Assembly: GCF_022808715.1 (NCBI RefSeq)
Contig: NZ_JAKZKX010000003.1
Span: forward strand, 124,001 to 188,000
Length of the DNA: 64,000 nucleotides
Direction: 5' to 3'
DNA from: Fundidesulfovibrio agrisoli
GTDB lineage: Bacteria > Desulfobacterota > Desulfovibrionia > Desulfovibrionales > Desulfovibrionaceae
Below, in pieces: positions 20,093 through 22,983 of this stretch. Position numbers and translations under genes: made by a program. The stretch's first letter is position 1, and every line of letters begins with the position of its first letter. A model generated the notes under the pieces. The model made no database searches. It was not told the origin of the DNA and saw only the letters and a program-made list of their open reading frames with translations.

Positions 20093-20247
20093 GCTTGTCC
20101 GGCCTCCCTCAGTGCGCGCTGCTTCATCTATCGGTCGGATTTGAATCCATAATAATAAACGATTTGTCCTTTCCCTGCGCATGGATTCCAATGCCCGATC
20201 ATCATTGATTGAATCCGGCGTCAGGCCGGGCGGAGCGAACAGGAACG

Positions 20248-20523
20248 ATGCGTGCGAACATGCCCCAGCACTGGGTTTTCGACGACGAATTCGACGGCGG
20301 CGAAGAGACCTGCGGCCGCGTCATCATCAATTTGCACACCTACGTGCGGGAAATGCCTCCGGGCACGCACATCGTGCTCATCTCGGAAGACCCGGCCGCG
20401 CCCGTGGAATTCCCGGCCTGGTGCCGCATGACCAGAAACGCCCTGCTGGACATGGCCCACCCCTATTACCTGGTTGAGCTCAAACCCCATCTCGTTCCCG
20501 AGGGCAGCCTCGGTGACAACTAA
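20248..20523 (+). CDS. TusA/SirA-like sulfur-relay protein
   Basis: A 91-residue protein matching the TusA fold: a short strand (WVFDDEFDGGE), the active-site Cys followed by a helix (ETCGRVIINLHTYVREMPPG), then THIVLISEDPAAPVEFPAWCRMT. In typical TusA the motif is Cys-Pro; here it is Cys-Gly, as in the second TusA-like protein at 21042. The start at 20248 has AGGA upstream. It is followed after 11 bases by a DsrE-like gene. By family it would accept and pass on persulfide sulfur; the partner is unknown. Confidence 0.78.
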   Translation: MRANMPQHWVFDDEFDGGEETCGRVIINLHTYVREMPPGTHIVLISEDPAAPVEFPAWCRMTRNALLDMAHPYYLVELKPHLVPEGSLGDN

Positions 20524-20534
20524 GGAGACCCCAC

Positions 20535-20900
20535 ATGGCTGATACGTTCTGCGTGACCATCACCCACTGCCGCACCGACGGCGACAAGGCCACACTGGGC
20601 TTCGTGGTGGCCAACGCCGCCCTGGGCAGCGAGAAGGATACCATGATCTTCCTGAGCACCGACGGCGTGTACTGCGCCGTGAAGGGCGAGGCCGAGAAGA
20701 TCGACGAGGGCGCGCCCTTCGCCCCCCTCAAGGAGCTCATCAACAAGTTCGTGGGCGCGGGCGGCAAGATCTACGTCTGCACCCCGTGCCTCAAGAAGCG
20801 CGGCCTCTCCGAGGCGGATCTCATCGAAGGCGCGACACCGGCTGGCGGCGCGGTGCTGGTGGAGTGGCTGAGCAACGGCTCCCCCTGCGTGGCCTATTAG
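20535..20900 (+). CDS. DsrE/DsrF-like sulfur-relay protein
   Basis: The 121-residue protein has the DsrE fold: an N-terminal strand FCVTITHC, ATLGFVVANAALGSEKDTMI, a loop with STDGVYCAVKGE, and GGKIYVCTPCLKKRGLSEADL, whose CTPC is at the position of the sulfur-carrying Cys of this family. A strong AAGGAG precedes the ATG. Its position between two TusA-like genes suggests the three exchange persulfide. A palindromic repeat lies in the gap before the next gene. Confidence 0.82.
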   Translation: MADTFCVTITHCRTDGDKATLGFVVANAALGSEKDTMIFLSTDGVYCAVKGEAEKIDEGAPFAPLKELINKFVGAGGKIYVCTPCLKKRGLSEADLIEGATPAGGAVLVEWLSNGSPCVAY

Positions 20901-21041: not shown

Positions 21042-21805
21042 ATGAGCACGATTGAAGCGAACCTGGCCGACCTCAAACCGGACCGTGTGTTCGACGGCGG
21101 CGACCTGGACTGCGGCTCGGGCCTGGCCCTGATGATCCGCGAGCACATGCTGGAAGTGCCCCCCGGCGGCGTGCTGGAGATGGTCAGCCGCGAACCCACC
21201 GTGGCCGACGATCTGCCGCCCTGGTGCAGGCTCTCCGGCCACGAGTACCTGGGCAGCCTGCCCGGCGAGGCCGGCGCGCGCTACTTCCTGCGCAGGGGGG
21301 GGCCGCCGGTTCCGGTGACGCCGCCGAGGCCGAGAAGAAAGCCCTGGAGCAGGACAAGCAGCGCGCCAAGGCCTACGAGTGGCGGCTGCGGGTGCGCGCC
21401 GGGGCCAACCTCTCAAGCACCGCCTACTGCCGCAACTTCTCCTGGAAGCTGGGCCAGCCCGCCAGCTTCGAGGAGCGCGACGAGCACCCCAGCGCCGTGG
21501 AGGCCCTGCTGGGCGCGCTGGGCGGGGCGCTTGCCACGGGATACGCCACGGAGTGCTCCCGCGACGGGCTGGAGATGGACGACATCGAGATCACCGTCAA
21601 AGGCAGGCTGGGCAACATCCTGGCGCACCTGGGCCTGGAGGAGGGCGACCCCTCCTTCAGCTCCATCGAGGTGCGCTGTTTCGCCTCCACCCTGGAAGAG
21701 GAATCACGGGCCCGCGCCGCCTGGGACCGGGCCGTGGCCCGCTCCCCCCTGGCGGCCACCCTGGCCAAGGCGCTGGACCTCAAAACGAGCTTCACAACGG
21801 TATGA
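21042..21805 (+). CDS. TusA-OsmC fusion protein, reading frame interrupted at a run of eight G
   Basis: Residues 1-85 in the first frame are TusA-like (DLDCGSGLALMIREHMLEVP, then DDLPPWCRLSGHEYLG). At 21295-21302 a run of eight G ends the match, and the OsmC-like part continues in another frame to 21805 (RVRAGANLSSTAYCRNFSWK, then DDIEITVKGRLGNILAHLG). Nine G would restore one protein of about 254 residues. The OsmC part lacks both usual redox Cys: Ala in LGALGGALATGY and Ser in AVARSPLAATLAK. Its stop overlaps the core-MetE start (ATGA). A true mutation, a sequencing error and programmed slippage are all possible. Confidence 0.75.
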
Positions 21806-22983
21806 CCACCTTCACCACCACCCAAGTGGGCAGCTGGCCCCGCTCCAAGAGGATGCTGCGCGCCCTGCGCGACCGCCGCACCGGCGCGATGACCCGAGAG
21901 GCCTTCGAGGCCGTGGCCGAGGAGGAGATCCGCCGCACCGTGCGCCTCCAGGAGGGGGCCGGGCTGGACGTGCTGGTGGACGGCGAGCACCGCCGCGACA
22001 ATTTCTATTCCTTCATCACGGACAAGGTGGAAGGCACGCGGCTCATGTCGCTGGCTGAGATGCTCGACGAGATGGAGGACAAGTCCGGGTTCGAGGAGAT
22101 GCTCACCACCCTGGACGTGCCCGCCTCGGCCATCCGCAACCCCACCTGCATCGGCAGGCTCTCGCGCCGCGAGCCCCTGGCCGTGGACGACCTGCGCTTC
22201 ATGCGCACCCTCACGGACAAGCCCGTGAAGATCACCCTGCCCGGGCCGTACCTTCTCACCCGCTCAATGTGGGTGTGGGCCTACACCGGCAAGGTCTACG
22301 CCAGCCAGCGCGAGATGGGCGACGACGTGGTGCGCCTGCTGCGCGAGGAGCTGCTGGAGCTGGCCGCCGAGGGCTGCGAGTTCGTGCAGTTCGACGAGCC
22401 CGTGCTCACCGAGGTGGTCATGAGCGGGGAGTGCGGCCGACGAACGTTCATGTGAGCGACGCTCGCCACCCGCCGTGACGTGGGTGAAGAACTTGGCTAC
22501 GCAGCGGAGCTCATCAACCGGGTGGTTGAGGGCGTGGAAGGCACGCGCACCGGCCTGCACATCTGCCGGGGCAACTGGAGCACCCGGGAAGAGGTGCTGC
22601 TCACGGGCGACTATCGGCCCCTGCTGCCCGCGCTGACCAACATGCGCGTGCGGCAGTTCGTGTTGGAGTACGCCACCCCGCGCGCCGGGGAGATCGAGGT
22701 GGTGGGAGCGGCCTTGTCGGGCGCTGTCCCCGGGTCGCAGACGCCCCGCGAGTTGGGGCTGGGGGTGGTCAACCCCCGCACCGTGGAGGTGGAGACCCCG
22801 GAGGAGATCGCCGCCCGCGCCGAGGAGGCGCTGCGCTTCTACAGGCCGGAGCAGCTCTTCCTGAACACGGACTGCGGCTTCGGCTGCTTCGCCAACCGCT
22901 GCGTCAACGTGGAGGAAATCGCGGCCGCCAAGATAGCCTCCATCGCCCGGGCCGCCAGGCTGCTCCGGGAGCGCCACGGCTGA
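21802..22983 (+). CDS. Core (single-barrel) MetE-type methionine synthase with in-frame TGA; candidate selenoprotein
   Basis: The frame encodes 393 residues, about half the length of full MetE, so only the catalytic barrel is present, as in the corrinoid-linked core MetE proteins of anaerobes. Zinc ligands are visible: GLHICRGNW (His, Cys), VLEYATPRAGE (Glu) and LNTDCGFGC (Cys). A TGA at 22453-22455 falls at codon 218, after GECGRRTFM and before ATLATRRD; the frame is otherwise uninterrupted, and related proteins as I recall them have Cys there. Codons around the TGA are unlike the rest of the gene. It could instead be a nonsense mutation. The upstream frame overlaps by ATGA. Confidence 0.8.
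22456..22490 (+). promoter_or_regulatory. Candidate bacterial SECIS hairpin downstream of the TGA
   Basis: Bases 22467-22473 (CACCCGC when shifted one base, seven in all) can pair with 22480-22486 (GTGGGTG) with one G-U pair, leaving a six-base apical loop CGTGAC at 22474-22479. The loop begins 18 bases after the TGA and has G at its second position, within the ranges I recall for bacterial SECIS elements. The helix is short and was drawn by eye. Confidence 0.4.

Follow-up and report, generated by a model that had tools for sequence, protein, structure and literature searches.

We analyzed a stretch of 64,000 nt of the Fundidesulfovibrio agrisoli genome (contig NZ_JAKZKX010000003.1, positions 124,001 to 188,000 of the forward strand; hereafter the window, to which all coordinates refer) and focused on a gene of the methionine synthase family MetE that contains an in-frame TGA codon. 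The reading frame runs from an ATG at 21802 to a TGA terminator at 22981-22983; its sole internal stop is the TGA at 22453-22455, which corresponds to residue 218 in the context GECGRRTFM-U-ATLATRRD (U, selenocysteine, Sec). Standard gene calling divides the gene into two open reading frames (ORFs). The initial annotation of this DNA had described a single frame from 21802 to 22983 broken by TGA 22453 alone and had proposed a candidate selenoprotein. The frame was borne out, and the proposal is supported by a column shared by TGA and Cys, by the presence of the selenocysteine genes and by a conserved hairpin resembling a selenocysteine insertion sequence (SECIS). From these comparative results we infer that TGA 22453 is very probably a selenocysteine codon (probability roughly 0.94). 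UGA 22453 would be decoded as Sec by SelB and tRNA-Sec, guided by the hairpin at 22467-22486. The features of the locus are collected in Table 1.

Among 59 genomes of the same genus, family or order (F. agrisoli included) we found 14 strong matches, all 14 with exactly one stop, a TGA at the same codon within GRRTFM-U-ATLATRRD or close variants of it. A further 12 weak matches (E-values from 1e-17 to 2e-5) lie within stop-free frames of 540-853 residues. A scan of a species-genome collection yielded 66 loci, and in a sample of the phylum 8 of 395 genomes, again including our own, matched at E ≤ 1e-30. We compared column 218 in 100 loci, a set in which a few genomes are represented twice and which omits the window's own loci (L001-L003, L116) and the tRNA and sel loci (L029-L049). 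The column holds TGA in 61 loci, Cys (TGC or TGT) in 17, Arg in 2, Gln in 1, Ala in 1 and a gap in 15 (3 remote relatives in addition to the 12 weak matches), with 3 loci not covering it; the 20 loci with Gln, Ala, a gap or no coverage are remote relatives or fragmentary. Including the window, the 62 TGA loci comprise 57 distinct sequences around the codon; the same TGA is found in 61 loci besides the window's, with 56 distinct sequences among them. The motif is TFM-U in the Sec forms and TFM-C in the Cys forms. The initial annotation had named a TFMC motif in related proteins, and its Cys is indeed present in more distant homologues, while the close ones carry TGA and two exceptions carry Arg. 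The TGA aligns with Cys of homologues from different organisms, and TGA homologues occur in further Sec-encoding genomes.

The TGA forms range over Thermodesulfobacteriota and bins labelled Bacteroidota, Acidobacteriota, Armatimonadota, Chloroflexota and Pseudomonadota. Among named isolates, Desulfopila aestuarii DSM 18488 and Desulfobulbus alkaliphilus DSM 24258 keep the codon, as does the complete chromosome of Desulfopila sp. IMCC35008. The Cys forms come from 11 Poribacteria, 1 Dehalococcoidia and 5 genomes from the window's phylum. In a tree of 75 distinct sequences out of 80, built by a quick method and with long branches flagged, the TGA forms are a single clade (SH-like approximate likelihood ratio test, SH-aLRT, 99) that requires one change on the tree, which makes a single origin of Sec the simplest reading. 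Two TGA loci (L093 and L094) are located in bins labelled Betaproteobacteria and Rhodospirillales; L093 has five additional residues ahead of Sec, and its hairpin is uncommonly strong (z = -4.69). The two Arg loci (L107 and L108) belong to bacterial bins and keep the zinc ligands, and neither has sulfur-carrier neighbours in the flank examined; they perhaps have a different function.

The distribution of the codon bears on the possibility that the TGA arose by recent nonsense mutation in a pseudogene or is a miscall. Such an explanation would be in line with the frame shift near a G run in the adjoining TusA-OsmC gene, which indicates that the assembly or the strain is not flawless. However, the same TGA recurs in the 61 other loci, isolates as well as metagenome bins, the 13 other strong matches are free of a second stop, and the divergence downstream of the TGA is of the coding type. 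In the 56 distinct TGA genes (the fragment locus L016 is excluded here and from the counts of residue conservation) codon positions 1, 2 and 3 diverge by 0.227/0.154/0.556 upstream and 0.227/0.169/0.581 downstream of the TGA. Both halves of the gene diverge in a coding manner, and the protein-level constraint on the second half is about the same as on the first. As the TGA is conserved across independent genomes, we rejected a pseudogene or sequencing error, whose probability we regard as negligible.

All four selenocysteine genes that the initial annotation had named for a check of the genome were found: selA (603.9 bits), selB (366.8 bits), selD (331.7 bits) and the tRNA-Sec gene selC (79.1 bits, anticodon UCA). 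SelD is itself a known selenoprotein family, and the selD gene of this genome (L046, C26:15306-16214) carries one in-frame TGA. In 42 genomes chosen from those with a match, tRNA-Sec was found above the gathering score in 40, namely in all 25 genomes of the TGA type, in 13 of the 15 of the Cys type and in both of the Arg type. The anticodon is UCA in the six lowest-scoring TGA-type genomes, and two others were checked too. The two failures are Poribacteria bins, where the retrieved matches are ordinary tRNAs.

Downstream of the TGA a hairpin is predicted with its stem at 22467-22473 and 22480-22486 and its loop at 22474-22479 (CACCCGC, CGUGAC and GUGGGUG for left arm, loop and right arm). The initial annotation had claimed an apical loop 18 bases past the TGA, and the loop starts at just this distance. 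The model for bacterial SECIS elements (bSECIS) demands a loop of 3-9 nt, a stem of 4-16 bp, a spacing of 16-37 nt, a G within the first two loop positions and a minimum free energy of at most -7.5 (PMC13188914). A script applied these published constraints, with the hairpin's own energy tested against the limit. The window hairpin passes all of them (7 bp, loop CGUGAC, spacing 18, -10.5 kcal/mol), and so do 53 of the 57 distinct TGA sequences compared to none of the 17 Cys homologues; one of the two Arg forms passes by an unrelated hairpin elsewhere. The exact 18/6 geometry is present in 53 of the 57 TGA sequences (52 model-passing ones and L113, with an energy of -6.5), while L016 passes with a different geometry. 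Among 2480 synonymous recodings, any bSECIS-type hairpin arose in 16.9% and this exact one, in the same place, in 4.6%.

Codon choice in the stem is conserved as well: residue 223 is encoded by ACC in 60 of 62 genes, residue 224 by CGC in 59 of 62 and residue 228 by GGT in 50 of 60, and T223, R224 and G228 show the lowest codon entropy for their residue type (among columns in which a single residue makes up at least 90%). All but one of the 62 genes have Ala or Val at residue 227, and in 59 of these 61 the codon ends in G; elsewhere in the TGA genes, 402 of the 1953 codons for Ala and 877 of the 1942 for Val do so. In pair counts 91% of the cells pair, versus 31-53% in slid versions of the hairpin. 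The initial annotation had also noted atypical codons around the TGA. The usage is indeed unusual: of the gene's 370 stretches of 23 codons, the one from residue 213 is the most atypical and the one from residue 212 comes fourth. The conserved synonymous sites, however, are ACC223, CGC224 and GGT228 and not the CGA, CGA and ACG codons before the TGA.

Several observations weigh against reading the TGA as Sec. As tRNA-Sec is also found in most Cys-type and both Arg-type genomes, its presence is no predictor of TGA. Three Bacteroidota sequences fail the bSECIS model, one of them (L088) with a stem of 5 bp and no G at loop position 1 or 2, the other two (L090, L091) by folding another hairpin; L113 narrowly misses the energy limit. 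Covariation is modest, with changes on both sides in 12 cells compared to 5.3 in shuffles, 11 of the 12 being in the outermost pair, and RNAalifold recovers 5 inner pairs only, with a small covariation term. Furthermore, the hairpin region of the window is not unusually stable (z = -0.42 and -1.36 in two folding runs), and 74% of its synonymous recodings fold as well or better. Of the folding proposed initially, the hairpin itself was found and is conserved in homologues, but the stretch alone does not stand out in stability. Because fold energy alone is uninformative for the window, we used the conservation of one specific hairpin instead; the evidence for a SECIS is this conserved hairpin and not the overall energy. 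A scan of the window with Rfam gave two tRNAs and nothing further above gathering scores.

Two other ways of reading the codon were considered. UGA may be a true stop that separates two proteins or domains, the second from a start such as GTG 22480 and the split perhaps regulated; a 167-aa ORF does begin at this GTG, and termination at UGA is expected under selenium shortage. However, the 17 Cys loci encode one continuous protein, a SECIS-type hairpin accompanies the TGA and is missing from the Cys sequences, tRNA-Sec was found in all 25 TGA genomes examined, and the first half alone would be without any zinc ligand. With respect to the latter, the initial annotation's claim that all zinc ligands lie 3' of the TGA proved correct for H253, C255, E289 and C358. 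On the grounds of the continuous Cys forms, the hairpin being found only with TGA and the presence of tRNA-Sec, a true stop with restart was rejected as very improbable. Nothing was found in favour of a decoding of UGA as another residue, either Trp or, through near-cognate decoding, Cys, which appears extremely improbable and was rejected as well: no covering locus has Trp at the column, the SECIS-like hairpin and tRNA-Sec accompany the TGA, and the MetE-like gene itself terminates in TGA at 22981.

With the TGA read as Sec, the read-through protein belongs to PF01717, the catalytic domain of MetE (108.9 bits, cut-off 21). Nine NCBIfam methionine synthase models matched, all below their curated cut-offs (best 170.1 versus 406), and no selenoprotein model was among the matches in NCBIfam release 20.0. 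An AlphaFold2 model of the protein (predicted local distance difference test, pLDDT, 88.2; predicted template modelling score, pTM, 0.90) has as its best solved match the single-domain synthase 3rpd (Z 38.8, 2.3 Å over 325 residues), followed by the catalytic half of MetE (Z about 36). In the alignment Ser11, Glu62 and Asp198 correspond to homocysteine-binding residues and His253, Cys255, Glu289 and Cys358 to zinc ligands, as given in PMC7857596. These residues do not vary among the Sec, Cys and Arg forms, wherever a sequence extends over them. The predicted protein is a stand-alone MetE catalytic barrel with zinc and homocysteine residues retained. Sec218 lies within a stretch missing from the solved structures in the three alignments shown; this family-specific loop follows the DEP strand and is probably mobile. 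Cys116 and Cys362 accompany Sec (Table 1) and are candidate partners of Sec218.

Table 1. Features of the MetE-like locus (window coordinates)
Feature	Position	Strand	Basis or remark
TusA-like protein, start codon uncertain	20209..20523	+	PF01206, 25.3 bits, just under the cut-off of 28.6
DsrE-like protein	20535..20900	+	PF02635, 61.2 bits, cut-off 22.7
TusA-OsmC fusion gene	21042..21805	+	OsmC PF02566, 41.4 bits, over cut-off
MetE-family single-domain enzyme, 393 aa with TGA218 as predicted selenocysteine	21802..22983	+	PF01717, 3rpd fold match
Cys116	22147..22149	+	in all 56 Sec forms and none of the 19 Cys/Arg forms
TGA in frame at residue 218, predicted to encode selenocysteine	22453..22455	+	Cys in distant homologues
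Hairpin predicted to be a bacterial SECIS, stem of 7 bp, loop CGTGAC of 6 nt	22467..22486	+	18 nt after TGA
Zinc ligands His253 and Cys255	22558..22566	+	alignment with E. coli MetE His641/Cys643
Zinc ligand Glu289	22666..22668	+	alignment with E. coli MetE Glu665
Zinc ligand Cys358	22873..22875	+	alignment with E. coli MetE Cys726
Cys362, four residues past a zinc ligand	22885..22887	+	in 52 of the 55 Sec forms that reach this position and none of the 19 Cys/Arg forms

The initial annotation knew of no established MetE-type selenoprotein, and in agreement with this none of the 119 families and subfamilies of prokaryotic selenoproteins inventoried in 2026 is a MetE or PF01717 family (Table 1 of PMC13188914). 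The putative selenoprotein family is thus not in this inventory. In the accessible parts of the deep-Sep paper (PMC12013277, including its Table 3) and of PMC9312934, PMC9751293, PMC8318568, PMC10418091, PMC7435645, PMC2667541 and PMC10779653 we found no MetE-type selenoprotein either. Likewise, the words methionine synthase, MetE and homocysteine are absent from the available text of PMC2398784 and PMC5029168, and among the sections covered of two papers on core methionine synthases, selenomethionine is the sole seleno- mention in PMC7857596 and no word starting with 'seleno' occurs in PMC7005905. No paper joining core-MetE with selenocysteine was found in a search outside which most subscription papers lay; an unpublished database annotation of the RefSeq records may exist. 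New here are the operon described below and the association of Cys116 and Cys362 with Sec.

The protein resembles the core (folate-independent) methionine synthases MesA-MesD/core-MetE, which, in the sections of PMC7857596 and PMC7005905 covered, have a single catalytic barrel and no N-terminal folate domain. It shares with core-MetE, by alignment, the zinc set His, Cys, Glu and Cys and the homocysteine-binding Ser, Glu and Asp, and its best structural match 3rpd is the MesD protein, a likeness in fold. In contrast to core-MetE, it has Sec or Cys in the stretch that the solved enzymes lack, Cys116 and Cys362 in the Sec forms, an operon with TusA, DsrE and TusA-OsmC, and scores under all nine matched synthase cut-offs. 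The in-frame TGA aligned with Cys, the bSECIS hairpin and the Sec machinery are as in bacterial selenoproteins. Most characterised bacterial selenoproteins have a thioredoxin-like fold and a redox motif, according to PMC13188914, unlike the MetE-like protein, a TIM-barrel zinc enzyme with the motif TFMU. With its zinc methyltransferase barrel, the family would add an unusual scaffold to those of the selenoproteins. Corrinoid/zinc methyltransferases of the UroD superfamily occur in type 1 mlp clusters, one of them tied to the use of dimethyl selenide (PMC10418091, sections available). They belong to the same wider superfamily and are linked to selenium and methylated chalcogens, but represent another subfamily, and no Sec is reported in those enzymes in the same sections of that paper. 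A tie between mlp clusters and the operon studied here is an analogy only.

The MetE-like gene is the last of a conserved gene order TusA-DsrE-(TusA-OsmC)-MetE(U), which Cys forms share in part, and its start overlaps the stop of TusA-OsmC (ATGA). Of the 62 TGA loci, 59 have TusA- or OsmC-type neighbours and 52 a DsrE neighbour; of the 17 Cys loci, 12 and 5 do, respectively. In these counts some loci have short flanks, and in some Cys loci the neighbouring genes are downstream or some kilobases off. The presence of carrier genes beside Cys forms suggests that the linkage is independent of Sec. DsrE-like and OsmC-like proteins are themselves listed among other selenoproteins in the inventory (PMC13188914). 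The conserved operon offers a concrete route to asking why a relative of methionine synthase needs sulfur carriers and selenium.

With regard to function, the genome encodes a MetH-like protein of 800 aa (465.6 bits, family cut-off 1010.85), and the profile scan found no second PF01717 gene besides the MetE-like one. The MetH-like gene is located at L137:396-2798 on the minus strand and scores below the NCBIfam metH cut-off; what looks like an internal TAG is its own stop, and the protein is probably without a reactivation domain. As a MetH-like protein is present, the role of the Sec enzyme is probably not routine methionine synthesis, and we infer a special role tied to the sulfur carriers rather than that of a housekeeping synthase. 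As in MetE, an activated thiol would bind zinc, either homocysteine or a compound closely analogous to it, and Sec218 (Cys in other forms) would act at or near the zinc site as a chalcogen. Sulfur or redox equivalents would pass between Sec218 and the upstream-encoded carriers TusA, DsrE and TusA-OsmC, with Cys116 and Cys362 as candidate partners. We propose tentatively that sulfur relay may be the main role of the enzyme; that Sec takes sulfane sulfur (or methyl-sulfur) from the TusA/DsrE/TusA-OsmC relay and passes it to or from zinc-bound homocysteine is a somewhat more speculative version. If true, it would represent an undescribed link of persulfide carriers with methyl and thiol metabolism that has Cys relatives and one Sec clade.

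Three points weigh against this role: the Sec loop is modelled poorly (pLDDT 71, 57 and 69 in the blocks of residues 201-230), the association of Cys116 and Cys362 with Sec may be explained by single-clade ancestry, and the TGA loci L093 and L094 have no sulfur-carrier neighbours in the flank examined. Provided that residue 218 is Sec, it could possibly serve instead as a methyl relay or as a redox switch that protects or gates an ordinary folate-independent methionine synthase, an alternative that concerns the functional half of our explanation only and that we hold at somewhat less than even odds. In the redox-switch version a Se-S bond would form with Cys116, Cys362 or a zinc ligand; in either version the sulfur-carrier genes would only be co-regulated. 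In favour of this alternative, every zinc and homocysteine residue of MetE is retained, Sec co-occurs with Cys362, four positions past a zinc ligand, and the nearest solved structure is the single-domain synthase 3rpd, whereas the MetH-like protein already present in the genome and the tight linkage to carrier genes, which reaches many Cys forms, argue against it.

Finally, two observations concern the carrier genes themselves. TusA-OsmC is frame-shifted near the G run at ~21298 in this assembly and is a single intact gene in relatives, so that an assembly error or a recent mutation is indicated; the TusA half of the fusion in the relative L004 scores 23.5 bits, below the cut-off of 28.6. By eye, in seven sequences, OsmC next to Sec forms (L004, L050, L073, L088) is without Cys where OsmC next to Cys forms (L100, L112, L118) has G(A/S)CL, and the OsmC cysteine thus seems to be lost where the enzyme has the predicted Sec.
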